Part shown: in pieces, positions 3,679 to 30,380 of the stretch | Numbering within the stretch: the stretch's first letter is position 1 | Layout of the letters: each line of letters begins with the position of its first letter | Source of the DNA: Nitrosomonas cryotolerans ATCC 49181 | GTDB taxonomy: Bacteria; Pseudomonadota; Gammaproteobacteria; Burkholderiales; Nitrosomonadaceae | Direction: 5' to 3' | DNA: 64,000 nt | Assembly: GCF_900143275.1 (NCBI RefSeq) | Contig: NZ_FSRO01000001.1 | Location: 1,116,001-1,180,000 of the forward strand | Program-made: the position numbers and the translations under genes | The notes under the pieces: model-generated | The model's database searches: none | What the model saw: only the letters and a program-made list of their open reading frames with translations | Told to the model about the DNA's origin: nothing

Positions 3679-4335
3679 CTATTTTTCCATAGTGTTAATG
3701 AAAGCATTTGCTTCATGAATGGATTTTTCCATCGAAGTGATCAAGGATGACACGTCCGCCTTCATGATTCCTAATTCTCCTTTTAGCGAAGCAATCGCGC
3801 GTGCATTAAGATTGTGCTTCAGAAACAATACATGGTCACTGAATACGCGGAGTACCGGTTTAATTTTGGTTTCTGCACTTTTCATTAAAGAGAGAAGCTG
3901 CCTGTAGTGTGTTTTAGTTGCATTCAGCTTATTCTGGCTGCTATGTTTAAGTGAGATATTGTTATATTGCGTGATTTCTTGTTCCCATTCGGAAAATAAT
4001 GCTTGAGCAATATCTTCTATATCTGCAATACGCTTACTGACTTCCTGGGCTTTACTGACACTGGCTTCGTACTCACTGTTTAATTGATTGTATATCGTTT
4101 CGAGATCGCCTCCTTTAAAGTTGGTGACAGCGGTAAACTGTGCCAACGCGGATTTAAATTGTGCTTTGGTTTCCTCTTGTGTGTCGCGGGCTTTTTCAAC
4201 CCGATAAACCATGACATCTCGTTTAGGGATGCCTACTTTTTCTAATATGCCGTATTGCACACTTGAGCAAGCAAGTAAGCTTGAAACAAAAGAGAAAATG
4301 AATAAACGCTGTAAAAAATACACAAGTGTCTCCAT
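3679..4335 (-). CDS. DUF2959-like lipoprotein, coiled-coil
   Basis: Starting at the ATG at 4335 gives 218 residues with a lipoprotein signal (hydrophobic stretch, then LLACSS) and a mostly helical, charged body ending at INTMEK. An upstream in-frame extension would overlap the next gene and hide the signal peptide, so it was rejected. The sequence resembles DUF2959 proteins, whose function is unknown. It lies 56 bases after the Tam41-like gene on the same strand, so it may be the last gene of the lipid locus and could act in the envelope. That role is inferred from position only. Confidence 0.7.
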   Translation of the reverse strand: METLVYFLQRLFIFSFVSSLLACSSVQYGILEKVGIPKRDVMVYRVEKARDTQEETKAQFKSALAQFTAVTNFKGGDLETIYNQLNSEYEASVSKAQEVSKRIADIEDIAQALFSEWEQEITQYNNISLKHSSQNKLNATKTHYRQLLSLMKSAETKIKPVLRVFSDHVLFLKHNLNARAIASLKGELGIMKADVSSLITSMEKSIHEANAFINTMEK

Positions 4336-4391
4336 TGATAGTTTTAAATAAAAAAACGGTAGCCTGGTTTTATTTTTATAGAAAAGGTTTT

Positions 4392-5363
4392 TTAACGCAA
4401 TATGCCGCGTCGTAGCAATTGCCACATGACTTTATAACCCCAAAGAACAGGGTGGCGTCGTAACATGGGCGTGATTTCAATATGGATGCCGGTATGCCGC
4501 TCAATTTTCCACGCGGCATAATCAAGACAATCCCGAAAAGTAATGCTGGCCTTGGTTAGGCGTAAAATAGATAGAATACGTCCTTGCCAGCGCCGCAGAC
4601 GCCAATGCCATCGTGCACGCCGCCGAGTTGCTGTACTGGTTAGGCAGCGGTAATGCCCGCTTGACTGTATTTCAAATATGTCTGTTAATACAGGTCTTGC
4701 GGCCGCAGTGAGTTGCGCAAAGTTATCTAGATTCAAACGTGCGAGGTAGCGTGCTCGTGTTTCTCGTTCTGGTCGCAATTCTGCTGCATAAGTGAGCGTC
4801 AGGCAACGCGTCCATATTTCTTCGATATCGATTGTACAAGTGTTTTGTGCTTCAATACCTGTTCTGAGAAAAGTAATCACTGCATGGGCCAGTGCATGAT
4901 AGATACGCTGGCGGCTTATTTCATTGCGTGCGTAGAGCAGGCGGGATGGCTGAGCAAAACGCGCCCAGATATAAGGGTGAAACCAGTATTGGGCTCCTTG
5001 TTCAAAATCCGTTGTTGAGATAACTGCATACTTGGCACGTAGTGTTTTGCCTTGATGAGAGACCTCAAGGTAGAACACATTGGGTGGTAACCAGGTATTC
5101 AGATAGCTTAAATGACGTTCTGAATAAGCATTACGGTAGCTATCAACGATAACGTAAAGATCCACGATTCCTTCATCCAGATCGCGGGAATGCAAACAGG
5201 ATCCATACAGTATGACCGCATCCAGTGCGGTATCAAAGCGTGTGACAACGGCATCGACCAGAATGGAGAAATCTGCTGCTACCGTTTTTTCGCTTTGTGC
5301 TGTTATTTCAGCTAATAAGGCAGTGGGTAGTGGTTTGGTAGATACGGGAAAAGAAGCTGTCAT
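4392..5363 (-). CDS. Tam41-like nucleotidyltransferase (candidate ceramide-phosphate/phosphatidate cytidylyltransferase)
   Basis: A 323-residue protein with a nucleotidyltransferase core: YGS at 53-55, acidic residues D68 and D74 in the pattern VDLYVIVD, then a YSE..LSYLN stretch and KYAVIS. This order resembles mitochondrial Tam41, which makes CDP-diacylglycerol from phosphatidate and CTP, and is unlike the membrane enzyme CdsA. The C-terminal third is basic and may bind membranes. It is 15 bases downstream of the lipid kinase, so the kinase product is a natural substrate. From memory, a nucleotidyltransferase of this kind is part of the Caulobacter cpg genes. The exact lipid substrate is inferred. 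Confidence 0.65.
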   Translation of the reverse strand: MTASFPVSTKPLPTALLAEITAQSEKTVAADFSILVDAVVTRFDTALDAVILYGSCLHSRDLDEGIVDLYVIVDSYRNAYSERHLSYLNTWLPPNVFYLEVSHQGKTLRAKYAVISTTDFEQGAQYWFHPYIWARFAQPSRLLYARNEISRQRIYHALAHAVITFLRTGIEAQNTCTIDIEEIWTRCLTLTYAAELRPERETRARYLARLNLDNFAQLTAAARPVLTDIFEIQSSGHYRCLTSTATRRRARWHWRLRRWQGRILSILRLTKASITFRDCLDYAAWKIERHTGIHIEITPMLRRHPVLWGYKVMWQLLRRGILR

Positions 5364-5378
5364 TGTGAGTTGCAGATC

Positions 5379-6458
5379 CTATAGCGCTAAAAAGTTGATG
5401 GGGTCTGTTGCCGTAATATATAAGGGAATATCCTGGCTGACTGACCGATACAGTTCGCCATCTACAATATATTCGTCATTCATGTGCAATGCCAATGCGT
5501 GTGTGTTGTAGCTGTGATAACCTTCCTCTTCTTTGAGTATGCGCCCTCGGCCTGAAAGCAAAGGCCATAATGAGGACCAGAGGTGCTTGCGTTGTTGGTC
5601 TACCCATGTGATATGAAGTGGTGCCTGTTCTTGTCCCCAGTAGGGGCGTATGCCCAAGAGCAGACAGTCCAGTGCACTAACAAGCGCAAACAGGTAGGTT
5701 CCATGATGTGTTTTGCCATTGGCATCAAGTATGGACATTTGAACGGGTGCCCATTCATTTTGATGGCTACCCAGAATCATACCTGCCAGGGAACGTAGCA
5801 TAATAAGAAGAGTAAATATCCCACCGGTTAGGCCCAGTTGTTTAACGCTACTACGGGAAAATTTGACGCCTCTTGCAACCAACCCGACAGCAAAGAATAG
5901 TCCATATATTTTGGTAGAGCCTGCTTGTTCGATACACAAAACAGAGCGTCGTATCAATATCGGTGTCGATGGCTGCAGCAGATAGGATCGGAGTCGCTGC
6001 AGGGCCTGCTCCGGTTTGCCACGAATGCCCAGATCCAGTGATGTCATATTGGTTGTGCCACCTGGAATAATAGCCAGCAGAGGCCATTTGGCACGTGGTT
6101 GAGTTGCGAACAAATGGCTGAGTACAGCATGTATTGTGCCATCTCCTGCTACAATGACTAATAAATCAATTTCAGCTTGCATGAGTGCATCGACTGATGT
6201 TTGGAACGCCACTGCACTGCTGGCTTCGCGGATAAGGCCGCAAGGTATGTCGCTGAGTGCTTTTTTTATAATCTTTCCACGTTTCCGGACCTGTCCACTC
6301 ATAGGGTTAAAAAGCAACCCAACCTTGGCAGTCCCTGATTCCAGACGGTTAATACAGACTTGTTGGCTCATGGGTGCCATTCCGAAAAACATCGTTGACT
6401 GAAGTGAGTGATCCGCTTCCCGAGGGGGCGAATAAAATGTCTCCTGCTGAGTAGCCAA
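5379..6458 (-). CDS. lipid kinase, diacylglycerol/sphingosine-kinase family
   Basis: A 359-residue protein with the DAGK catalytic fold: nucleotide-binding AGDGT at 104-108 (usually GGDGT), PGGTTN at 132-137 and LFNPMSG near residue 49. It would phosphorylate a lipid hydroxyl with ATP on the inner membrane face. It sits between a CDP-alcohol transferase and a Tam41-like cytidylyltransferase, suggesting the product is activated with CTP and given a headgroup. A ceramide or diacylglycerol substrate cannot be told from sequence alone. The start given is TTG without a clear ribosome site; ATG codons at 6392, 6380 and 6371 are alternatives. Confidence 0.8.
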   Translation of the reverse strand: MATQQETFYSPPREADHSLQSTMFFGMAPMSQQVCINRLESGTAKVGLLFNPMSGQVRKRGKIIKKALSDIPCGLIREASSAVAFQTSVDALMQAEIDLLVIVAGDGTIHAVLSHLFATQPRAKWPLLAIIPGGTTNMTSLDLGIRGKPEQALQRLRSYLLQPSTPILIRRSVLCIEQAGSTKIYGLFFAVGLVARGVKFSRSSVKQLGLTGGIFTLLIMLRSLAGMILGSHQNEWAPVQMSILDANGKTHHGTYLFALVSALDCLLLGIRPYWGQEQAPLHITWVDQQRKHLWSSLWPLLSGRGRILKEEEGYHSYNTHALALHMNDEYIVDGELYRSVSQDIPLYITATDPINFLAL

Positions 6459-6510: not shown

Positions 6511-7740
6511 TTAACCCTGATTTTTGGATTCAATTGGTGCGCGGGTAAAAATTCTGACTGCGAGCTCATTCCTGTCTTGACTGGGGTCAATGTCTTGCAA
6601 CCATGAACGTAAAGGTCGATGATGGCGCCAAGTGCGCCATCCAGCTATGAGTCGTCCGCTCAGAATAGCTGTGGAAAGTAAGTGCCAGATAATCACTAGC
6701 AAAAAACCGATATCAGGCCGCCCTGTTAGCCAGCCATAGGTTAATAAGATCAGGTTGGGATTGCGCCGTGCCGTAATCAAACGATTAAATGAATCGAGTT
6801 TGCGCCAGATAAAGATATCAAATGGGGCTAACCAAAGCTGAAAGGCTCCCTCGCATAAGCGCCCGCCGACATAGCCAATAAACATCAACCATATCAGTGA
6901 TTCTAGATGCGTAATGGGATTTAACGTGGTTGCCAGTCCTATTCCCCAAGCGAAATACCAGATAGGCGGGTGAATAATATCCAGTCCGTGATCTAGTATA
7001 TCGCCTAGGCGGCTTGATGTGACCGTGACGCGTGCCAGCTTCCCATCTACGGTATCTAGGAAGGTCATGAACCAGCCCATTGCCAAACCGGTGCCGAAGT
7101 AGCCTTGCCAGAATGCAATTCCGGCGAGCACGGCGAATACCAAGCTGAGTAAGGTAACCTGATTGGGTTGTATGCCATAACGAACACAAAAGTGTGTTGA
7201 CCAGTATGCAGGCCAAGGCCATAGCCACTTTGTGACAAGATCGGTGACGCCTTTATACGACCCAGCAAAAAGCTCTGCTTCGAGTAACTTACGATTTGTC
7301 TGGTTGATGGGTAATAGGTAGGGTGGATCCTTTTTCTTCAAATTTTGCTGAAAATCGATTTTTAAATCTTTAAGGTCATAGCGGGGGAGTGCAGAAATAG
7401 CCCGTGTTGTACCATTATCTAATAGCGCTTTAAGTATCTGCCTGGCTTGAGCGCTATCCGTGCGTACTGCTACTGGCATCTCATGATAGCTGTACAGAGC
7501 CATTTGTGACTGCATTGTGATCAATGCTGTTAATACCCTGATGTCGAATAAATAATTGGCAGATAAAAAGAGTACCGGCGCTGTCGCTGGAATTTCTTCT
7601 ATACTATTGACCAGTATGGTTTGTTTGATGCTCCTGAGCATACGTTGCAGGCGTTCTTGACCACTTAGACCCCAAATCTTTGTTTCACTTTCACCGATGA
7701 TATAAATATAAGTTGACATTTTTATTATATTGCTGTCCAA
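6511..7740 (-). CDS. CDP-alcohol phosphatidyltransferase with N-terminal nucleotidyltransferase-like region
   Basis: A 409-residue protein. The C-terminal half is a multi-pass membrane CDP-alcohol transferase with a complete catalytic motif: D229, D232-G233, A236-R237, G246, D250 and D254. Residues 1-150 are soluble and faintly resemble a degenerate sugar-phosphate nucleotidyltransferase domain, as in fused inositol-phosphate cytidylyltransferase/synthase enzymes; the usual glycine-rich loop is not seen. It would move a phospho-lipid group from a CDP-lipid to an alcohol. It lies 52 bases upstream of the lipid kinase. The start could be TTG 7740 or ATG 7719; neither has a strong ribosome site. 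Confidence 0.8.
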   Translation of the reverse strand: MDSNIIKMSTYIYIIGESETKIWGLSGQERLQRMLRSIKQTILVNSIEEIPATAPVLFLSANYLFDIRVLTALITMQSQMALYSYHEMPVAVRTDSAQARQILKALLDNGTTRAISALPRYDLKDLKIDFQQNLKKKDPPYLLPINQTNRKLLEAELFAGSYKGVTDLVTKWLWPWPAYWSTHFCVRYGIQPNQVTLLSLVFAVLAGIAFWQGYFGTGLAMGWFMTFLDTVDGKLARVTVTSSRLGDILDHGLDIIHPPIWYFAWGIGLATTLNPITHLESLIWLMFIGYVGGRLCEGAFQLWLAPFDIFIWRKLDSFNRLITARRNPNLILLTYGWLTGRPDIGFLLVIIWHLLSTAILSGRLIAGWRTWRHHRPLRSWLQDIDPSQDRNELAVRIFTRAPIESKNQG

Positions 7741-7943: not shown

Positions 7944-8360
7944 TTAATGCGGTCTTTGCTGTTGTTCAATATATTGCTTAATAATCGAGAGTGGTGCTCC
8001 ACCACAACTACCCGCAAAATAGCTTGGACTCCAAAGCATATTACCCCAAAGCTTATTTTTAATTTCGGGATAATTCTTTTTGCGAATAAGTCGGCTTGAA
8101 ACGCCTTTCAAACTATTTACCAAGTTAGAAATAGCAATTTTTGGTGGATAGTTAACTAAAAGGTGAATATGATCATGCTTACCGTTAAATTCCACCAATT
8201 CTGCTTCAAAATCCAAACACACGTTTTTAAATATTTCTTCCAAATCAATTAATACCCTTCCGGAGAAAACATCTCTACGGTATTTTGTTACAAAGACCAA
8301 ATGAACATGAAGATTAAAAATACAATGTCTTCCTGTTCTTACATCGTTATCAACTTGCAT
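7944..8360 (-). CDS. tnpA: IS200/IS605 transposase TnpA (Y1 HUH)
   Basis: A 138-residue single-strand transposase. The HUH metal-binding motif is HIH within HDHIHLLV, and the likely catalytic tyrosine is in IKQYIEQQ near the C-terminus. It excises and inserts one DNA strand by recognising the hairpins at both ends. This copy looks intact, whereas the one in copy 2 is frameshifted. It is divergent from tnpB, with about 30 bases between the start codons. Confidence 0.93.
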   Translation of the reverse strand: MQVDNDVRTGRHCIFNLHVHLVFVTKYRRDVFSGRVLIDLEEIFKNVCLDFEAELVEFNGKHDHIHLLVNYPPKIAISNLVNSLKGVSSRLIRKKNYPEIKNKLWGNMLWSPSYFAGSCGGAPLSIIKQYIEQQQRPH

Positions 8361-8390
8361 AGACTAATTCCTTTTTGTATAATTATAACC

Positions 8391-9623
8391 ATGAAGCAGA
8401 TTATACGCAAAGCCTTTAAATTTCGACTCAGTCCAAATTCTGACCAAATACAGAAGATGGTTGAGTTTGCGGGTGCTAATCGGTTTGTTTGGAATAAAGC
8501 CTTAGCAATGAATCTGTTCAGATTAGAGCAGAAACAGCCATTGCTTTGGTACAACGAGTTGTCATTTTGGCTAAAGCTATGGAAATCCTCAGAAGATTAT
8601 GGATTTCTAAAAACCGTTCATTCTCAACCGTTGCAACAAGCCTTAAAAAACTTAGAAAAAGCGTTCAAAGGCGGTTTTGATAAAAAACAGCCTTTAAAAC
8701 GGATTCCAAAATTCAAGAAAAAAGGTTTGAGTGACAGCTTTCGTTATCCACAAGGATTTAAGCTGGAGCAAGAGTCTAGCAAAGTGTTCTTGCCTAAAAT
8801 CGGTTGGGTGAAATATCGTAATTCACGCCAAGTCATTGGTGACGTTAAAAATATGACGATTTCCCGTAAAGGCGGTTATTGGTACGTGTCGATTCAGACT
8901 GAGTACGAGACCGAGCTAAAGCGTCATAGCTCAACCAGTATGATTGGTGTTGATATGGGCGTTACCCGCTTTGCAACCTTGTCAGACGGCTCATACGTAG
9001 AACCTTTAAACAGTTTCAGAAAGTTATCAAAGAAACTGGCTTTTGAACAGCGTAAGCTGTCTAAAAAAGTCCGTTTCTCTGCTAACTGGAAAAAGCAGAA
9101 ACAAATCATTACCCGACTGCATGAGCGTATTGCCAATGCTCGTTTAGACTTCTTACACAAAACCTCAACCGAAATCAGCAAAAATCACGCAATGGTCGTA
9201 GTTGAGAATTTAAAGATAGGAAACATGTCTAAGAGTGCCAAGGGCAGTGTTGAAAAGCATGGTAAAAACGTCAAAGCGAAATCGGGTCTAAACAAATCCA
9301 TTCTTGACCAAGGATGGGGAATGTTCCTTTCGTTCTTGGAGTATAAACAGGCTTGTTCAGGCGGGGATGTATTGAAGGTAAACCCTCAATACACCTCTCA
9401 AACCTGCCCTAGATGTCAACATGTTAGTCGTGACAATCGCAAAAGCCAAAGTGCTTTTGAATGTACAGAATGTGGATTTAAGGCCAATGCCGACTTGGTA
9501 GGTGCCTTGAATGTACTTGAGCGAGGACATCGCTTGTTAGCCTGTGGAGTTGAAACGTTAGTTTCGTCTAAGAAGCAGGAACCAGTAGGCAGTAGCAATA
9601 CAAACCTACTCTTAACGGCTTAA
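8391..9623 (+). CDS. tnpB: TnpB RNA-guided nuclease of the IS605 element, copy 1
   Basis: A 410-residue TnpB, complete. RuvC catalytic residues are D188 (GVDMGVTRFA), E272 (VVENL) and D368 (NADL), with a zinc ribbon C339/C342/C358/C361 between the last two. The helix-turn-helix-like N-terminus begins MKQIIRKAFKFRLSP, and this ATG matches the start in the second copy; an in-frame extension of 30 residues upstream would overlap tnpA. TnpB proteins cut DNA next to a target motif, guided by an RNA from the element's right end, and help to keep the element. Confidence 0.95.
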   Translation: MKQIIRKAFKFRLSPNSDQIQKMVEFAGANRFVWNKALAMNLFRLEQKQPLLWYNELSFWLKLWKSSEDYGFLKTVHSQPLQQALKNLEKAFKGGFDKKQPLKRIPKFKKKGLSDSFRYPQGFKLEQESSKVFLPKIGWVKYRNSRQVIGDVKNMTISRKGGYWYVSIQTEYETELKRHSSTSMIGVDMGVTRFATLSDGSYVEPLNSFRKLSKKLAFEQRKLSKKVRFSANWKKQKQIITRLHERIANARLDFLHKTSTEISKNHAMVVVENLKIGNMSKSAKGSVEKHGKNVKAKSGLNKSILDQGWGMFLSFLEYKQACSGGDVLKVNPQYTSQTCPRCQHVSRDNRKSQSAFECTECGFKANADLVGALNVLERGHRLLACGVETLVSSKKQEPVGSSNTNLLLTA

Positions 9624-10206: not shown

Positions 10207-10581
10207 TTATTTTTGCCATACTTCATGGACGGAGTTTTTGATAAAGTCTCTTGTGTAATAATCATTATCAATAATTTTATTATTCCAGACCACAATATCC
10301 AGGTCAATGACTCTTGGACCGAATTTAGGGAGGGAGCGGTCTCTGCCGAGTCTGTCTTCTAGATTCTTTAGATATTGAGTCAACGCTTGTTGTGATATAG
10401 CGGTCCGGATTCTTACTGCGCCGTTGATAAAATCGGCTTGATCGGTTATTCCAATTGGTGTGGTTTTTACCCATGAAGATGTGTCGATTACATTGACTTT
10501 CTGTTTTAAGAAGATGAGTGTCTTTCTTATATTTTCTTCAGGGTTAATGTTGGATCCAATGCTCAGGATGCAGTCATTCAT
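10207..10581 (-). CDS. folK: 2-amino-4-hydroxy-6-hydroxymethyldihydropteridine pyrophosphokinase
   Basis: A 124-residue HPPK of folate synthesis: it transfers pyrophosphate from ATP to hydroxymethyl-dihydropterin. Seen are the N-terminal LSIGSNINPEENI, the DFINGAVRI strand, GRDRSLPKFGPRVIDLDI (the ATP and pterin site), and then an abrupt end. The usual length is about 160 residues, so the C-terminal part after the RxIDLD motif is short and divergent. The active-site core is intact. It overlaps the upstream folX by 8 bases, a translational coupling. Confidence 0.85.
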   Translation of the reverse strand: MNDCILSIGSNINPEENIRKTLIFLKQKVNVIDTSSWVKTTPIGITDQADFINGAVRIRTAISQQALTQYLKNLEDRLGRDRSLPKFGPRVIDLDIVVWNNKIIDNDYYTRDFIKNSVHEVWQK

Positions 10582-10930
10582 GCCTTGAAGCTTCCAATTC
10601 TATCGAAACAGACTCAGCAAAACGTAAGGCATGTGGTTTATCTACCTCTACTTTTGCGAAACGTACATTTTTGTTGATCATGATTTCATCCAGAATAGAT
10701 TGTGTCAGCTTTTCTAACATTCTAAATTTCTGGTCCTGAACAAGAAAAATTATCTTTTTGGTAATGGTTTTGTAATCATATGATTCATCTACAGAGTCAT
10801 TTCTTATTGCATTGTTCAGATTTACATCAATCGTCATATTAATAATGACATCTTGTTTATTAGCTATTTCTTCTGAGTTAAAGCCAATATAAGTTCTTAA
10901 CAATAAATTTTTAACGCGGATTATTGCCAT
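10574..10930 (-). CDS. folX: dihydroneopterin-triphosphate epimerase/aldolase, FolX type
   Basis: A 118-residue protein of the FolB/FolX family. Its sequence (AIIRVKNLLLRTYIGF at the start, then LEKLTQ, VEVDKPHALRFAESVS) is much closer to E. coli FolX, an epimerase of dihydroneopterin triphosphate, than to FolB aldolase. FolX makes the precursor of tetrahydromonapterin, a cofactor of phenylalanine hydroxylase in some bacteria. As it is paired with folK it might instead do the aldolase step of folate synthesis. Both activities overlap in the family, so the symbol is provisional. Confidence 0.75.
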   Translation of the reverse strand: MAIIRVKNLLLRTYIGFNSEEIANKQDVIINMTIDVNLNNAIRNDSVDESYDYKTITKKIIFLVQDQKFRMLEKLTQSILDEIMINKNVRFAKVEVDKPHALRFAESVSIELEASRHE

Positions 10931-11121: not shown

Positions 11122-12183
11122 TTACATAATTCGCCTAAGCCATAAATTAGCGATTAGAATTAAGAATGATCCGGGCAAGAGCGCCGTAAAGGCTGGATTT
11201 ATATGGAACAATAAGCCTACATTGGCAATAATCTGGTCAAGCAGGTAAACAGCGATTCCCATGATCGCAGCAAATACGAGCTTATTACCCAGACCTGAAC
11301 GAATCGAGCCGAAAACAAAAGGAATTGAAAGGAGTAGCATGGCTATTGTCATTAGTGCGCTGCCTGCTTTTCTCCATAGAGCAAGTGCATAGGAGTCCGC
11401 TTCTTGACCGGTATTACGCAAGAAATCTACATGACGGAATAGTTCAATGGGTGACAGGCTTTCGGGTGGTTTGGTCAGGGTCGAAATATCTTCAGGATTG
11501 AGAAATGATTGCCAGCTTACTGAGCTTGCAGTAGTTGATAAAATTTGATTGTCTGTGAATGTTCTTACAATAACATTACTTAGTCGCCATAGATCATTTT
11601 CAATAATATCGGCATATTGAGCCTGAGTATGTGTTAATAAAAAACCATCCTTATCAAGGTGCAATATCTCAATATCGGCCGCTTTTTTGGCATGTAACAT
11701 CTCACCAATTCTCAAGATATTCTGTTCATTTCTGGTCCATATTCCAAGACCTCTGCCTAGTTCCGCACTTTGTTCTAGTGCGACTGCACGATGTGAAATG
11801 GCTTTCTGTTGAAGCTGTGGTGCGACAAATTGCTCTAATGCCGCAATGAAGAACAGAAGAAGCAAGCCAATCCAGAGTGGTGCCCGGCTGATACGAATGG
11901 GTGAGATGCCCGCGACGCGCAATGCGATCAACTCAGAATGGACGGCTAACTTTCCGAGTGCTGCGACTGTTCCCAATAAGGCGACAAATGGAGCAATTTG
12001 AATAAATCTGCGTGGCAGTAGCAGCGCTGTGTATAAAAAGGCATCTTCGACGCGATAAGTACCCTTGCCAACGTCATCTAGTTGATCTAATAAATCAAAA
12101 AAGCTAAATAACGGTAACAGTATTGCTGTAGCAATAATCAGACCGATAAAAACTTGGAGAGCAATATAGCGATAAATGATCAT
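11122..12183 (-). CDS. LptG-like permease (YjgP/YjgQ family)
   Basis: 353 residues from the ATG at 12183, two bases after the LptF-like stop codon; a longer in-frame start was rejected because it overlaps that gene. There are three membrane helices near the N-terminus, a periplasmic beta-jellyroll (about residues 125-255), then three C-terminal helices, the LptFG layout. LptF and LptG form the inner-membrane transporter that feeds lipopolysaccharide to the Lpt bridge. Betaproteobacterial lptFG normally sit beside pepA, but here the neighbours are lipid-synthesis genes. A paralogue exporting another lipid, perhaps a sphingolipid, is therefore proposed. Confidence 0.8.
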   Translation of the reverse strand: MIIYRYIALQVFIGLIIATAILLPLFSFFDLLDQLDDVGKGTYRVEDAFLYTALLLPRRFIQIAPFVALLGTVAALGKLAVHSELIALRVAGISPIRISRAPLWIGLLLLFFIAALEQFVAPQLQQKAISHRAVALEQSAELGRGLGIWTRNEQNILRIGEMLHAKKAADIEILHLDKDGFLLTHTQAQYADIIENDLWRLSNVIVRTFTDNQILSTTASSVSWQSFLNPEDISTLTKPPESLSPIELFRHVDFLRNTGQEADSYALALWRKAGSALMTIAMLLLSIPFVFGSIRSGLGNKLVFAAIMGIAVYLLDQIIANVGLLFHINPAFTALLPGSFLILIANLWLRRIM

Positions 12184-12185
12184 TA

Positions 12186-13253
12186 TTAACGTGAGAGTCG
12201 TTTCTGCACGGGTCCGAATGAAAGTAATCCGAGGCCGCCGGCCATCAGTAAATATAACCACCAAATACCGGGCATGCTGCTGACGACGCCTTGCTCAACC
12301 CAGGTTTGAGCTAACCCACTCAGATTATAGTAAATTGCGAAAACCATGGCAGCTATAAAATAGGTTCTGTCACTTTTGTCTTGACGTGGAGCCGTGCGAA
12401 TGAAAGATGCGGCAATTAAAGCCAATAGAATCGTTGCGATAGGACGAGAAAGCCGCCATTGTAATTCGGCAATTTCTCGTGGCTGATCCGATTCCCATAA
12501 AATTCTTGTCGTCGTCGCTTTGCGTCTATAGTTTGAAACATCGTTAATGTCGGTAAAATAGGTCATTTTCTCAAATTTAATGACATCATCTTTTGTCGCG
12601 GCATGTGTGAGTCGATAAATATAGCCATCGGATAATTGTATGCGTGGCCGTTGATTAGGTGTTAACTGCTGCTGTGCTTCTTTAGCTACGATGATCTCAT
12701 TGTGATCATTTTTCTTGATATAGTGGAAAATATTGGCCATTTGATTGTTAGCATCATCTTTGTTGCGCACATAAATCACTCTGCCACTATTTACACTGCC
12801 ATAGAAGCGTCCCGCCTGAAATCGATTGGTATTTAATTCGGCTTCTGCCTGTGCATTCAGAATATAGCTTTCGGCATATGCCCATGGGCGTAGGTAGATA
12901 GACAGAATGCCACTGATGATTCCAACAGGAATGGCTACAATAAGCACGGCGTATATGATCCGTTTTCCACTGACGCCAGAAGAGCGTAATACATTAATCT
13001 CCTGATCTTTATTGAGTCTTCCTAGACCAATAATGACAGCAACGTAAAGTGCGATGGGAACCAATACTTCCAGGGCAATTAAAGTTTTGAGTAATACAAG
13101 TTTGAGCATGGCTGAGAGACCCAGTGTCTCGGTTACAGCACCTGCCAGGAGTCGAGCGCTACTGAAGCTAGCAAATAGCCCTGTTAGAAGGACTACCACC
13201 ACCATAAATGGTATCAATAATTCGCGCGAAATATAGCGTTCAATTATTTTCAT
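12186..13253 (-). CDS. LptF-like permease (YjgP/YjgQ family)
   Basis: A 355-residue protein beginning MKIIERYISRELL, typical for LptF. It has N-terminal helices at about 15-35, 55-75 and 95-120, a periplasmic domain of about 135 residues rich in beta strands, and C-terminal helices ending at QKRLSR. The loop EINVLRSSGVS after helix two is the cytosolic coupling segment that contacts the LptB ATPase. It is followed two bases later by the LptG-like gene and preceded by the MobA-like gene. No lptB or lptC lies in the window. Whether it serves lipopolysaccharide or the lipid made by this cluster is not shown by sequence. Confidence 0.8.
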   Translation of the reverse strand: MKIIERYISRELLIPFMVVVVLLTGLFASFSSARLLAGAVTETLGLSAMLKLVLLKTLIALEVLVPIALYVAVIIGLGRLNKDQEINVLRSSGVSGKRIIYAVLIVAIPVGIISGILSIYLRPWAYAESYILNAQAEAELNTNRFQAGRFYGSVNSGRVIYVRNKDDANNQMANIFHYIKKNDHNEIIVAKEAQQQLTPNQRPRIQLSDGYIYRLTHAATKDDVIKFEKMTYFTDINDVSNYRRKATTTRILWESDQPREIAELQWRLSRPIATILLALIAASFIRTAPRQDKSDRTYFIAAMVFAIYYNLSGLAQTWVEQGVVSSMPGIWWLYLLMAGGLGLLSFGPVQKRLSR

Positions 13254-13313: not shown

Positions 13314-14150
13314 CTAAGTAGATTTATTTTGATTGTGAGAAGAAGCCGCTGTTTTTGTTAGGATCATCTCAGCAAACTGTAAATCTTTAACGCTGTCGAC
13401 ATCAATGCCCGCTTGTGGGTCCGGTAATATCACCGCTTGTATATTCACTCTCGATTTTTCCGAAACAGCCTTGAGTGCTTGTTTCAGTGTTAGAGAACCC
13501 AGTAAATATGCTAGTACCATTCGTAGACCAAGAATTTGTAAGATTAACCGCCAAGGGCGTTTGCGCATATCTTCTGCTTGCCGCCAGAAAGTAACCAGCT
13601 CACGCCCTCGGGGGTTAAATGTAAACAGGTTACAGCCACAAAAGCCACCATCCCGTAGTCGTGTGACGGTCCGTTTAGTACCTGGAAAAGCTGTCATCAT
13701 ATCTTCGTGCTTGACCAGTCCCACAGTAGCATCCGCATTAGCGGCATAAGATTGATTCAAAAAATATTCCAGCGTTGTTGGCGTTAATAAGGCGTGGTCC
13801 GCTGTCGTTAACAATACCGGTGTGTCTTTATCTAACAATTTAAAACCGCTTTCAGCGCTGCGCGCAGGAGAGTTAAGATTGGGTAGCCAGGTGACTTGAC
13901 CAGACTCAATGCGATGTTTTAATTCCGGACAGGCGGGCAGAAATGATTCTGGGGGACCGCATAGAATTGTCGATGAGACTAGATCGCTTGCTGCTAATAC
14001 ATCGAGTACACGAATAATCATTGGTGTTCCGCAAACGGGTGCAATGGCCTTACAAGGCACGCCCGTGTACAGGGTAATCGGGTCATTGGCGGTACGATCC
14101 GCGGCTAGTACCAGTGCAGTAAATCGCTTGTTTCGTTTTATTTGAGTCAT
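13314..14150 (-). CDS. MobA-like NTP transferase
   Basis: A 278-residue protein with the GT-A nucleotidyltransferase fold: ALVLAADR at the N-terminus (degenerate LAAG loop), then PCKAIAPVCGTPMI with a conserved lysine, and TTADHALL carrying the metal-binding aspartate. Such enzymes couple CTP or GTP to a phosphorylated small molecule. It starts 3 bases after the stop of the candidate ceramide synthase and precedes the LptF/LptG-like genes. It could make a CDP-activated headgroup for the membrane transferase at 6.5-7.7 kb, but the substrate is unknown. Confidence 0.7.
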   Translation of the reverse strand: MTQIKRNKRFTALVLAADRTANDPITLYTGVPCKAIAPVCGTPMIIRVLDVLAASDLVSSTILCGPPESFLPACPELKHRIESGQVTWLPNLNSPARSAESGFKLLDKDTPVLLTTADHALLTPTTLEYFLNQSYAANADATVGLVKHEDMMTAFPGTKRTVTRLRDGGFCGCNLFTFNPRGRELVTFWRQAEDMRKRPWRLILQILGLRMVLAYLLGSLTLKQALKAVSEKSRVNIQAVILPDPQAGIDVDSVKDLQFAEMILTKTAASSHNQNKST

Positions 14151-14153
14151 TGA

Positions 14154-15308
14154 TTACAGTGTCTTTCCATAAATACGATAGCGCTTATATTGCTTACTGC
14201 CGATACTGCTCAGAATACCGCGCATAGCTTTATTGCTTTCCAATATCCATGACATTTCAACTTCTTTGATACCGCGAGAAAGTCCGGCTTGCCGTGGCGC
14301 ATCGATTACCATGAAAGCTAGCGCCATGCCGAGCGGTGTATTATGAAATTGCTTACGGACACCCATAAGGGGAATGCGAGCAGTGTGAATTTTTTTATTT
14401 CGAATTTTATTAATTAATTTGGCCCAGCCGAAAGGAAATAAATTACCGTTGAGTTCGGAAAATATTTCATTGAGATTGGGTAGCACTATCATGAAGGCTG
14501 CAGGGATACCATCAACTTCGGCAATTTGAATAAAATCATTCGGCACCAGTAAACGCAGGCTATTACCAAGCTCGGCGAACTCTGTTTGAGTAAACGGAAC
14601 AAACCCCCAATTGTCTGACCAAGCATCGTTGAATATATCACGTATCATTTCTATTTCTTGATTAAATTTGTTGCGTTGTAGTGGCCGTAATCGTACTTGC
14701 TTGGAAAATTTCTGTATAAGCGCTTGCATTACATGTGGCGTATCAAAGTCTACGCGTACCCAGTAAGCGAGTAAATCTTTTACTGCTTGATAGCCTTGCT
14801 CTTCGAGCAGCCGACTGTACCATTGTGGTGAATGTGGCATCATCACGACGGGGGGGGTGTCAAAACCATCTACCAGAATACCGCACTCCTGATTAATGGA
14901 GAAGTTAAAGGGGCCGGTGATATAACGGGTATGTCGAGCAGCTAACCATATTTCAGCATGCAGCATGAGTGCTGAAAATACTTCGGTATCATCCACACAC
15001 TCGAGCAGATTGAAATGACCGGTATCTTCACCATAACGTTCGCGATGAAGCGAATCAATATGCGCCCCAATTCTACCGACGGGTTGATTTTCCCGATAGG
15101 CAATCCAAGCCTGCCACTCTCCATGTTTGAAGAAAGGGTTGAACCTGGAAAAATGAAAGCGTCTTTCCAGGCGTAACGGTGGAACCCACACAGGATCATT
15201 GATATAGATATGCCAGGGCACATCAATAAATGTGCTCATATCGCGATAAGACATTACTGGGCGAACAATCACTGTTGTAGAGATAGGTGGCTTGGTTTTG
15301 TTGTTCAT
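14154..15308 (-). CDS. GNAT-like acyltransferase, candidate bacterial ceramide synthase
   Basis: 384 residues from the ATG at 15308; a longer in-frame start would lie inside a MITE and was rejected. The protein opens with a domain carrying IDVPWHIYINDPVWVPP, a signature of a family of double-GNAT-like proteins, and has a second GNAT-like half from about residue 200 (AAFMIVLPNLNE; ESNKAMRGILSSIGSKQYKRYRIY at the end). From memory, the ceramide synthase of Caulobacter (bCerS) is a GNAT-type protein in a locus with LptF/LptG-like and headgroup genes, as here. The family is fairly sure; the ceramide activity is inferred from context. Confidence 0.6.
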   Translation of the reverse strand: MNNKTKPPISTTVIVRPVMSYRDMSTFIDVPWHIYINDPVWVPPLRLERRFHFSRFNPFFKHGEWQAWIAYRENQPVGRIGAHIDSLHRERYGEDTGHFNLLECVDDTEVFSALMLHAEIWLAARHTRYITGPFNFSINQECGILVDGFDTPPVVMMPHSPQWYSRLLEEQGYQAVKDLLAYWVRVDFDTPHVMQALIQKFSKQVRLRPLQRNKFNQEIEMIRDIFNDAWSDNWGFVPFTQTEFAELGNSLRLLVPNDFIQIAEVDGIPAAFMIVLPNLNEIFSELNGNLFPFGWAKLINKIRNKKIHTARIPLMGVRKQFHNTPLGMALAFMVIDAPRQAGLSRGIKEVEMSWILESNKAMRGILSSIGSKQYKRYRIYGKTL

Positions 15309-15332
15309 GGTAGGTACGGAGATAACATGATT

Positions 15333-15421
15333 GAGACCTTTGCAAAACCCCAATAGTTGAAAGATTAATCCTTTATAACCAATAGTCGAAAACTTCTGGC
15401 GAGGGCTTTTGTAAAAGTCTC
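15333..15421 (+). repeat. 89-bp MITE-like repeat, copy B
   Basis: Forward copy with both terminal repeats (GAGACCTTTGCAAAA and its complement near 15421). It lies 24 bases upstream of the candidate ceramide synthase start, so it separates that gene from any older promoter and supplies the false upstream start codon. Confidence 0.88.
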
Positions 15422-15659: not shown

Positions 15660-15808
15660 TTGACATCCTCCCCTTCCTAAACGAAGGGGATTCCTAGCGA
15701 CTTATTAAGCCGTTAAGAGTAGGTTTGTATTGCTACTGCCTACTGGTTCCTGCTTCTTAGACGAAACTAACGTTTCAACTCCACAGGCTAACAAGCGATG
15801 TCCTCGCT
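15660..15808 (-). ncRNA. candidate omega RNA of IS copy 2
   Basis: Same right-end layout as copy 1: tnpB 3' end, CCCCTTC/GAAGGGG hairpin, terminal TCAA (seen here as TTGA). The guide would be the sequence just left of 15660 read on the minus strand. The 5' end is a guess. Confidence 0.4.
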
Positions 15809-16937
15809 CAAGTACATTCAAGGCACCTACCAAGTCGGCATTGGCTTTAAATCCACATTCTGTACATTCAAAAGCACTTTGGCTTTTGCGATTGTCACGA
15901 CTAACATGTTGACATCTAGGGCAGGTTTGAGAGGTGTATTGAGGGTTTACCTTCAATACATCCCCGCCTGAACAAGCCTGTTTATACTCCAAGAACGAAA
16001 CGAACATTCCCCATCCTTGGTCAAGAATGGATTTGTTTAGACCCGATTTCGCTTTGACGTTTTTACCATGCTTTTCAACACTGCCCTTGACACTCTTAGA
16101 CATGCTTCCTATCTTTAAATTTTCAACTACGACCATTGCGTGATTTTTGCTGATTTCGGTTGAGGTTTTGTGTAAGAAGTCTAAACGAGCATTGGCAATA
16201 CGCTCATACAGTCGGGTAATGATTTGTTTCTGCTTTTTCCAGTTAGCAGAGAAACGGACTTTTTTAGACAGCTTACGCTGTTCAAAAGCCAGTTTCTTTG
16301 ATAACTTTCTGAAACTGTTTAAAGGTTCTACGTATGAGCCGTCTGACAAGGTTGCAAAGCGGGTAACGCCCATATCAACACCAATCATACTGGTTGAGCT
16401 ATGACGCTTTAGCTCGGTCTCGTACTCAGTCTGAATCGACACGTACCAATAACCGCCTTTACGGGAAATCGTCATATTTTTAACGTCACCAATGACTTGG
16501 CGTGAATTACGATATTTCACCCAACCGATTTTAGGCAAGAACACTTTGCTAGACTCTTGCTCCAGCTTAAATCCTTGTGGATAACGAAAGCTGTCACTCA
16601 AACCTTTTTTCTTGAATTTTGGAATCCGTTTTAAAGGCTGTTTTTTATCAAAACCGTCTTTGAACGCTTTTTCTAAGTTTTTTAAGGCTTGTTGCAACGG
16701 TTGAGAATGAACGGTTTTTAGAAATCCATAATCTTCTGAGGATTTCCATAGCTTTAGCCAAAATGACAACTCGTTGTACCAAAGCAATGGCTGTTTCTGC
16801 TCTAATCTGAACAGATTCATTGCTAAGGCTTTATTCCAAACAAACCGATTAGCACCCGCAAACTCAACCATCTTCTGTACTTGGTCAGAATTTGGATTGA
16901 GTCGAGATTTAAAGGCTTTGCGTATAATCTGCTTCAT
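15705..16937 (-). CDS. tnpB: TnpB RNA-guided nuclease, copy 2
   Basis: 410 residues, differing from copy 1 at only a handful of positions (for example FVSFLE for FLSFLE). The RuvC triad D188/E272/D368 and the four zinc cysteines are intact, so the nuclease may still be active although its TnpA partner is broken. The shared left-flank TTTAT would be its expected target-adjacent motif. Confidence 0.95.
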   Translation of the reverse strand: MKQIIRKAFKSRLNPNSDQVQKMVEFAGANRFVWNKALAMNLFRLEQKQPLLWYNELSFWLKLWKSSEDYGFLKTVHSQPLQQALKNLEKAFKDGFDKKQPLKRIPKFKKKGLSDSFRYPQGFKLEQESSKVFLPKIGWVKYRNSRQVIGDVKNMTISRKGGYWYVSIQTEYETELKRHSSTSMIGVDMGVTRFATLSDGSYVEPLNSFRKLSKKLAFEQRKLSKKVRFSANWKKQKQIITRLYERIANARLDFLHKTSTEISKNHAMVVVENLKIGSMSKSVKGSVEKHGKNVKAKSGLNKSILDQGWGMFVSFLEYKQACSGGDVLKVNPQYTSQTCPRCQHVSRDNRKSQSAFECTECGFKANADLVGALNVLERGHRLLACGVETLVSSKKQEPVGSSNTNLLLTA

Positions 16938-16968
16938 GGTATATAATTATACCAAAAGGAATTGGTCT

Positions 16969-17384
16969 ATGCAAGTTAATAACGATATAATAGCAGGAAG
17001 ACATTGCGTTTTTAATCTTCATGTTCATTTGGTCTTTGTAACAAAATACCGTAGAGATGTTTTCTCCGGAAGGGTATTAATTGATTTGGAAGAAATATTT
17101 AAAAACGTGTGTTTGGATTTTGAAGCAGAATTGGTGGAATTTAACGGTGAGCATGATCATATTCACCTTTTAGTTAACTATCCCCAAAAATTGCTATTTC
17201 TAACTTGGTAAATAGTTTGAAAGGCGTTTCAAGCCGACTTATTCGCAAAAAGAATTATCCCGAAATTAAAAATAAGCTTTGGGGTAATATGCTTTGGAGT
17301 CCAAGCTATTTTGCGGGTAGTTGTGGTGGAGCACCACTCTCGATTATTAAGCAATATATTGAACAACAGCAAAGACCGCATTAA
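16969..17384 (+). pseudogene. tnpA: frameshifted IS200/IS605 tnpA, copy 2
   Basis: It aligns to the intact TnpA of copy 1 up to the VNYP that follows the HUH motif, where copy 1 reads TATCCACCAAAA and this copy TATCCCCAAAA. The one-base loss causes a stop at 17211. The remaining C-terminal part, with the catalytic-tyrosine region, continues in another frame to 17384. Confidence 0.9.
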
Positions 17385-29030: not shown

Positions 29031-29246
29031 ACAGAGTTCCTTAATTATGAGGTATTACGTTACTACAGCATTCATCAGAGGGTGGAGTTTAGCAGAGAGA
29101 GACAGGCAAAAAAAGGAAGTACAAGGCACAAATATTTATCATCCCAACTTCCGGAAAACCCCGGTCTTAAGGCCGGGGATGGATAGGGAGTCAGCTTCGC
29201 TGATACTAAAGCCTGTTTTTTCACCTATTTCTGTTACAGTGTGTTA

Positions 29247-30380
29247 ATGGAAATTAAGCGCGCATACAAATTCAGGTTTTACCCAACTTTTGAGCAAGAA
29301 ACTATTCTGGCTCAAACATTCGGGTGTGCTCGGTTTGTCTATAATCGGATGTTGCGCGTTCGTTCTGATGCTTGGTATACCGAGAAAAAAAGAATCGGGT
29401 ATCATGCTACCTCCTCTTTGTTGACCGAGTTAAAAAAAGAGCCTGAATTTGAATGGCTGAACAAAGTTTCCAGTGTTCCTGTGCAGCAATCTCTCCGCCA
29501 CCTGCAAACGGCATTTGGTAATTTCTTTGCCAAACGAGCCAAATACCCGTCATTCAAAAGCAAGCATGAGAAGCAATCGGCTGAATACACGTCCAGCGCC
29601 TTCAAGTGGGACGGTAAGTCTCTGAAACTGGCGAAGATGAAAGATCCACTGAATATCAGATGGTCGCGCACCCTTCCTAAGGCAACAAAACTAGCGATTG
29701 CAACAGTCTCTAAAGACTCAGCGGGTCGATACCATGTTTCTATGCTTTGCGACGACTCTGTTGCGCGAAAGCCAAGGGTTAGCGGCAAAATCGGCATTGA
29801 CTTAGGATTAACGCACTTCGCTATTCTTTCTACGGGCGAGAAGATTGCGTCTCCTAACACGCTACGAAAGAATGAAACCAGGCTTGCTAAGCTGCAACGC
29901 AAGCTATCTAAAAAGCGCAAAGGGTCGGCCAATAGACAAAAAGCCAGACTGAAAGTAGCGCGACTACATGCAGGAATTGCTGATGCTCGTAAAGACTTTC
30001 TACATAAACTCTCAACACGGCTAGTGAACGAAAACCAAGTGATAGCTGTAGAGTCTTTAGCTGTTAGCAATATGAAGAAAAATCGTTGCCTCGCAAAATC
30101 AATTTCCGATGCAGGATGGGGTGAATTTGTGCGGCAATTAGAATACAAGTCGCTGTGGTACGGGCGAGAGCTTGTAGGTATTGACCGATGGTATCCAAGC
30201 AGCAAACGCTGCTCGGGATGTGGGCATACCGTAAACAAGATGCCTTTGAATGTGCGTGAATGGACTTGTCCGGAATGCGAATCAATCCATGATCGAGACA
30301 TCAACGCAGCGCGTAATGTTTTGGCCGCTGGACTGGCGGTGTCAGCCCTTGGAGAATCTATAAGTCCTGTTTGCATTTAG
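29247..30380 (+). CDS. tnpB: TnpB RNA-guided nuclease (solo element)
   Basis: 377 residues from the ATG at 29247. The RuvC triad is visible as D in GIDLGLTHF, E in AVESLAV and D in DRDINAARN, with a zinc ribbon CSGCG...CPEC. It is only distantly related to the TnpB of the twin IS elements, so it is a separate lineage. All catalytic residues are present. The relic at 24.2 kb is a closer relative of this one. Confidence 0.93.
   Translation: MEIKRAYKFRFYPTFEQETILAQTFGCARFVYNRMLRVRSDAWYTEKKRIGYHATSSLLTELKKEPEFEWLNKVSSVPVQQSLRHLQTAFGNFFAKRAKYPSFKSKHEKQSAEYTSSAFKWDGKSLKLAKMKDPLNIRWSRTLPKATKLAIATVSKDSAGRYHVSMLCDDSVARKPRVSGKIGIDLGLTHFAILSTGEKIASPNTLRKNETRLAKLQRKLSKKRKGSANRQKARLKVARLHAGIADARKDFLHKLSTRLVNENQVIAVESLAVSNMKKNRCLAKSISDAGWGEFVRQLEYKSLWYGRELVGIDRWYPSSKRCSGCGHTVNKMPLNVREWTCPECESIHDRDINAARNVLAAGLAVSALGESISPVCI

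Follow-up and report, generated by a model that had tools for sequence, protein, structure and literature searches.

We propose that LptF and LptG of Nitrosomonas cryotolerans form the membrane half of an LptB2FGC exporter, which now probably carries a ceramide-based phospholipid, and not LPS, after loss of lipid A synthesis and of the canonical LptFG. Both genes are found in a 64,000-nucleotide stretch of DNA, referred to here as the window, and an earlier sequence-only reading had suggested that the pair might export a lipid other than LPS. That suggestion is most probably right, given that no match to LpxC or LpxB was found in the genome. The basis for our proposal is the observed gene content, the synteny of the locus, the sole LptFG of the genome, the purifying selection on both genes and the way in which LpxC, LptFG and ceramide synthase are distributed across the family.

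The LptF/LptG pair and the surrounding cluster

Both genes are encoded on the minus strand, LptF at 12186-13253 and LptG at 11122-12264. Each ORF gave a full-length match above the curated NCBIfam (equivalog) and Pfam thresholds. LptF scored 327.9 bits against TIGR04407 (cut-off 230) and LptG 320.1 bits against TIGR04408 (cut-off 240), and their PF03739 scores were 234.7 and 217.3 bits, respectively (Pfam cut-off 27.9). These scores and the ORF coordinates confirm that the pair is complete and adjacent, as had been claimed, and phylogenetic trees of both proteins (below) place them with the ceramide-linked type. As listed, the LptG ORF begins with a TTG at 12264, and its first ATG is codon 28, at base 12183. 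Since this ATG falls just beyond the LptF stop (LptF ends at 12186), the overlap of the two listed ORFs is probably a mere start-site matter, and 12183 is the probable true start of LptG. The closest solved structures are both from LptB2FGC exporters, 6mit_G for LptG (E 1.4e-46) and 9doh_F for LptF (E 1.4e-29). Between genomes G015 and G307, dN/dS was ~0.06 (YN00) or 0.05 (NG86) for LptF and ~0.10 (YN00) or 0.06 (NG86) for LptG, values that are rough because synonymous distances approach or exceed 1. The genes are constrained by purifying selection and are not remnants. As members of the LptF/LptG family, the two proteins should operate like LptFG.

In order of transcription, the cluster consists of a ceramide synthase-like gene, a MobA-like nucleotidyltransferase gene, LptF, LptG, folB/folK-like ORFs, an IS element and genes for a CDP-alcohol transferase, a lipid kinase, a Tam41-like protein and a DUF2959 protein. 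The nucleotidyltransferase (13314-14150, minus strand; PF12804, 42 bits, cut-off 27) resembles CC_1153 of Caulobacter by position and domain; Caulobacter CC numbers were assigned to window genes on these two features throughout, without alignment. The neighboring ORF (14154-15353, minus strand) had no Pfam or NCBIfam match at 0.001, and cluster context and conservation in Nitrosomonadaceae point to a bacterial ceramide synthase-like protein of the CC_1154 type. These two genes, on the same strand as the pair, are the sphingolipid-type surroundings that the sequence-only reading had described.

Downstream lie a CDP-alcohol phosphotransferase domain protein (6511-7740; PF01066, 38 bits, cut-off 22; position like CC_1159), a lipid kinase that is probably a ceramide kinase (5379-6458; PF00781, 57.4 bits, cut-off 23.6; position like CC_1160) and a Tam41-like cytidylyltransferase that is probably a CDP-ceramide synthase (4392-5363; position like CC_1161), all on the minus strand. 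The last assignment draws on PF09139 homologues and on predicted structure. PF09139 matched the window's protein at E 0.01, under its cut-off of 24, which was passed by two of the five members of this protein family scanned (L133, 27.1; L159, 24.3). The AlphaFold model (mean pLDDT 83) had as its top PDB match Tam41 itself, the mitochondrial CDP-DAG synthase (6ig4_A, E 5.9e-8, TM ~0.5). Taken together, the three proteins suggest a path from ceramide through ceramide-1-phosphate and CDP-ceramide to a head-grouped ceramide. The run is closed by a DUF2959 protein (3679-4425, minus strand; PF11172, 269 bits), whose gene is present in 22 of the 53 top ceramide-synthase loci from named genomes and which is a candidate additional component of the lipid system.

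Other genes interrupt the cluster. An IS200/IS605-type element (7944-9623; tnpA-like ORF at 7944-8360, minus strand; tnpB-like ORF at 8301-9623, plus strand) parts the LptFG-ceramide synthase half from the kinase/Tam41 half, and folK-like and folB-like ORFs (10207-10930, minus strand) lie between LptG and this element. These four labels come from reading the ORFs; the element and the folate-type ORFs stand outside the lipid system. A further IS200/IS605-type element at 15705-17211 is similar by eye to the first, and the two bracket the LptFG-ceramide synthase half. An additional tnpB-like ORF (29241-30380) has a counterpart close to the lptCAB run (L078, 14674-15813).

The arrangement is conserved. 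The 53 top ceramide-synthase matches in named genomes share 65-76% identity, and most come from records titled Nitrosomonas, Nitrosospira or Nitrosovibrio. In these loci, the nucleotidyltransferase was on the same strand as the synthase in 52, LptF in 50 and LptG in 49. Two of the three loci lacking LptF run into a contig edge, and the other (L122) has LptG and no LptF match. The presence of nucleotidyltransferase, LptF and LptG beside the ceramide synthase is therefore not due to chance. The full order, from ceramide synthase through nucleotidyltransferase, LptF, LptG, CDP-alcohol transferase and kinase to the Tam41-like gene, is present in the window, broken by the folBK-like ORFs and the IS element, and is uninterrupted in relatives such as G015 and G307. 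Pseudomonas asuensis and Azotobacter beijerinckii share it with one extra gap between nucleotidyltransferase and LptF. Of 27 named loci at greater distance, only 13 show LptF/G in the flank, and some of the 27 are truncated at contig edges. A second ceramide-synthase-like gene, 37% identical, was noted in G307 (C18:1073-2191) and G337 (C10:43244-44359). The pair was also said to lie away from pepA, and this holds: tblastn with E. coli PepA gave no match in the window or in any examined Nitrosomonadaceae locus. Flanking pepA accompanies canonical Burkholderiales LptF/G in 27 of 32 genomes examined (28 of 34 loci), and three of the five genomes without it (G016, G022 and G042) have lptF and lptG apart.

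Lipid A genes and the Lpt machinery

The N. cryotolerans genome (2.93 Mb, 2 contigs, 99.95% complete) was searched for lipid A and Lpt genes. The PF03739 profile found exactly two genes, the LptF and LptG of the window. No second LptFG, LptC or LptD was found, so the paralogous second pair that had been postulated was not borne out, and a check for an extra lptC gave one LptC. Neither LpxC nor LpxB had a match in the genome, and E. coli and Caulobacter controls were positive in both searches. Lipid A is the anchor of LPS, so export of LPS by this pair would fail on its defining feature, a genome that makes lipid A through LpxC and LpxB. The sequence-only reading had counted a sole lptFG in the genome against its proposal of a non-LPS substrate. 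The pair is indeed the only one, but this is not evidence for LPS export here because LpxC and LpxB are without match, and that argument presupposed LPS synthesis; the proposed substrate is left standing.

The remaining Lpt and sphingolipid genes were surveyed, like LpxB, in the N. cryotolerans genome alone. The single LptC is encoded in the run lptC-lptA-lptB-rpoN, and LptC, LptA and LptB score above their equivalog cut-offs. The single LptD is above its Pfam cut-off and under the stricter NCBIfam cut-offs. All four partners for a bridge (LptB, LptC, LptA and LptD) are thus present in the genome. In many proteobacteria kdsD and kdsC precede lptC; here the preceding gene is nadA, on the opposite strand. 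A serine palmitoyltransferase (Spt) is also encoded (54% identity to BL21 Spt; NF047599, 579.6 bits, cut-off 500). In its operon it comes after a fatty acyl-AMP ligase (858 bits, cut-off 600), with reductase-like and acyl carrier-like ORFs, both under cut-offs, between the two.

Lipid A loss across the family was gauged by LpxC in 125 Nitrosomonadaceae genomes and by LpxB in N. cryotolerans only. LpxC was found in none of the 125, including the 99 that are at least 90% complete and at most 5% contaminated, and in 287 of 300 sampled Burkholderiales genomes. The 13 without it are the nine sampled Nitrosomonadaceae, both sampled members of another family (f40) and G195 and G212, which are fragmentary. 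PF03739 detected LptF/G in 121 of the 125 family genomes, and ceramide synthase was found in 120. It was absent from G313, G334, G351, G305 and G410, the last four being the same four that have no LptF/G; in these drafts, joint absence may reflect one missing contig. More than two PF03739 matches occurred in nine of the 125, and G354 has one. In the two of these nine that were examined, G321 and G386, the extra match is an unpaired LptF that falls within the family's own clade. These copies (L196 in G321, 4627-5706; L194 in G386, 5192-6274) lie close to a gene for a nucleotidyltransferase or a CDP-alcohol transferase and resemble partial locus duplications.

Within the 300 order genomes ceramide synthase is found in 12, namely the nine Nitrosomonadaceae, G100, G140 and G219 (29% identity), and the last three have LpxC. 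A wider PF03739 search covered 55 hand-chosen genomes. G100 and G140 each possess two LptFG pairs, one of them beside the ceramide synthase. The f40 genomes (G040 and G085) gave no match for LpxC, ceramide synthase or LptF/G; the other non-family genomes have two PF03739 matches, with a weak third under the cut-off in G043. The contrast between f40, G100/G140 and Nitrosomonadaceae indicates that genomes with neither LpxC nor ceramide synthase also lack LptF/G, a pattern seen in just two genomes. Genomes with both can have two LptFG pairs, and in Nitrosomonadaceae the ceramide-side pair remains. Separately, G040 and G085 (98% and 99% complete) may represent a second, different loss of LPS.

Phylogenetic placement of the pair

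Careful trees were built from 55 LptF and 56 LptG rows, with 30 canonical loci represented and no alphaproteobacterial LptF/G. The duplicates L162 (of L199) and L177 (of L191) were removed from all trees, the divergent pairs of G100 and G140 (L190 and L192) were left out of the careful ones, and proteins longer than 420 residues were trimmed to the last 400. The canonical E. coli and Burkholderiales rows fell on one side of a branch (support 100/100 for LptF and 99/98 for LptG). The family's LptF and LptG grouped instead with ceramide-linked proteins. Their closest neighbors were from gamma MAGs (L133-L135), followed by those of E. coli BL21, Azotobacter, Pseudomonas and Nitrococcus. A clade uniting Nitrosomonadaceae with canonical Burkholderiales was rejected (AU p 0.0089 for LptF and 9.3e-7 for LptG). 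It was no longer rejected (p 0.449 and 0.389) once L133-L135, the two canonical E. coli rows, L155, L190 and L192 had been removed. In these reduced-row trees the canonical Burkholderiales rows remain on one side of a starred branch, and the LptG tree joins the family to four ceramide-linked rows at 95. Support for the canonical group was only 83 in a quick tree that included L190 and L192, and in gamma/beta-only trees (nine rows out) the two groups stayed apart, E. coli LptG being flagged as a long branch. By BLAST, the window's LptF scored 368 bits to L133 and L135, 288 to L134 and 176 to the spt-linked LptF of BL21, and 75-135 bits to the canonical Burkholderiales rows examined. Placement with the order's canonical LptFG is thus absent from the careful trees, but removal of key rows makes it statistically acceptable, and we consider a foreign origin of the family's LptFG likely, not proven.

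Ceramide-linked LptF/G do not form one lineage, the pairs of G100 and G140 being far from all others. Both pairs (L190, 7266-9520; L192, 8151-10408) are linked to ceramide synthase and very divergent from canonical and other ceramide-linked proteins. In E. coli LptG, K34, K40 and K41 are presumably LPS contacts. Charge reversal at these positions was considered as a sphingolipid-type signature and discarded, as position 34 is likewise D in 30 of 31 canonical Burkholderiales LptG rows and falls in a gap in the other one. Three positions chosen post hoc serve as leads only: LptG R270 (R in 32/32 canonical and 0/10 family rows), LptF R212 (27/29 canonical versus 0/10 family rows) and LptF K324 (K or R in 28/29 canonical versus 1/10 family rows).

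Proposed export route, alternatives and known systems

Based on these observations, we predict that Nitrosomonadaceae lost lipid A synthesis together with the canonical LptFG and kept the ceramide-linked LptF2/LptG2 kind, which would work with the single LptB, LptC, LptA and LptD. AasR, AcpR, Spt, CerR and the ceramide synthase would produce (dihydro)ceramide, which the lipid kinase would convert to ceramide-1-phosphate and the Tam41-like protein to CDP-ceramide. The CDP-alcohol transferase would then attach the head group, which is of the glycerate type in Caulobacter. LptB2FGC would extract the finished lipid from the inner membrane and drive it along the LptA bridge to LptD, and the outer leaflet would contain the ceramide lipid instead of LPS. 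What the exporter carries, in which sequence the enzymes act, how the complex is composed, whether the lipid resides in the outer leaflet and transport itself are all matters of prediction. We give an even chance to the further idea that the whole family has a hybrid bridge, in which an acquired sphingolipid-type LptFG sits on the family's own LptB, LptC, LptA and LptD after lipid A and canonical LptFG were lost; "own" is read here from the lptCAB-rpoN run in one genome. If this is true, LptFG is a swappable substrate selector, and LptB, LptC, LptA and LptD tolerate a ceramide phospholipid.

Three alternatives were weighed. The pair could be an ordinary LptFG that exports true LPS made by a lipid A route invisible to the LpxC and LpxB models, and it is true that both proteins pass LPS-export equivalog models and that relatives are reported to retain a single lpx gene, either lpxK or lpxA (PMC3087551). 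However, the family-wide lack of LpxC (0/125, versus 287/300 in the order), the lack of an LpxB match in N. cryotolerans, an lptC that does not adjoin kdsC/kdsD and the conserved ceramide synthase linkage make this very unlikely. It is also possible to envisage a canonical LptFG, vertically inherited, that was relocated next to the ceramide genes and evolved rapidly once lipid A was lost. The substrate would be the same and only the origin would differ. The AU values of 0.449 and 0.389 obtained with the nearest gamma, E. coli canonical, L155, L190 and L192 rows removed do not reject such an origin, but it was rejected on all rows but L190 and L192 (p 0.0089 and 9.3e-7), the window's LptF scores up to 368 bits with L133 and L135 against 75-135 with canonical Burkholderiales, and Azotobacter and Pseudomonas have the same gene order. 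We regard this origin as unlikely.

Another envelope lipid or glycolipid might be exported by the clustered pair, with ceramide lipids using another route. The substrate is assigned by deduction from its neighbors, and a DUF2959 gene to which no role is assigned closes the run, which leaves some room for this idea. Yet the genome has no second LptF/G, one LptC and one LptD, and the position of LptFG between the ceramide synthase and the head-group genes is conserved, so that we think it quite improbable. Export of a ceramide-based phospholipid by the sole LptFG is thus our preferred reading.

Parts of this picture have been described before. In the material consulted from Opiyo et al. 2010 (PMC3087551), only lpxK of nine Kdo2-lipid A genes is reported for N. 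europaea and only lpxA for N. multiformis, and the loss is attributed to genome reduction. As far as the sections consulted go, aasR, acpR and spt are named in N. eutropha in PMC9386255, and Olea-Ozuna et al. 2024 (PMC11324152) describe in the same species a sphingolipid cluster with transport genes, including LptF2/LptG2 orthologues. The latter authors assign ceramide phosphoglycerate lipids to the Caulobacter cluster, predict that N. eutropha can make them, identify CC_1160 as a ceramide kinase and CC_1161 as having a CDP-DAG-synthase-like domain, and mention LPS-lacking Sphingomonas. They propose, without experiment, that LptC2/F2/G2 move phosphosphingolipids in Caulobacter, and they state that the route by which bacterial sphingolipids leave the inner membrane for the outer one is unknown. 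PMC5118430, on N. mobilis, gave no match to LPS or sphingolipid terms. Judged by titles and the beginnings of abstracts, no paper joining lipid A loss to a sphingolipid cluster was recognized among the open-licence full-text papers listed. New here are the combination of the two, its scope and the presence of the sphingolipid-type pair as the sole pair. The loss of lipid A genes in Nitrosomonas thereby gains an alternative reading, replacement by another outer-leaflet lipid. In organisms such as Caulobacter, the presence of LPS and of a second LptFG obscures how sphingolipids reach the outer membrane. Nitrosomonadaceae, which are culturable and environmentally important ammonia oxidizers, seem to have neither.

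Among known systems, the closest likeness is to Caulobacter LptF2/LptG2 (CC_1156/CC_1155), which also lie beside ceramide synthase and phosphosphingolipid genes, and here the sequence-only reading, which had pointed to LptF/G-like genes in the Caulobacter sphingolipid locus, agrees with the published description (PMC11324152) from which, in the part consulted, this comparison was made. In contrast to N. cryotolerans, with its sole pair, one LptC and no LpxC or LpxB found, Caulobacter has LpxC, a first LptFG and LptC2. The window's pair belongs to the same family as the LptB2FGC LPS exporters of solved structure, and the partner genes for LptB, C, A and D are in the genome; it differs in that no lipid A pathway was detected and in that its permeases group with the ceramide-linked type. 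The extra lptF/lptG in the spt cluster of E. coli BL21(DE3) falls on the same side of both trees as the window's pair and lies beside spt, acyl carrier protein, acyl-AMP ligase and the ceramide-synthase-like yghO (partial, 48%), but BL21 retains its canonical pepA-linked LptFG as well. Sphingomonas lacks LPS and has glycosphingolipids instead. N. cryotolerans, a member of a different bacterial class, would resemble it in having a sphingolipid in the place of LPS.
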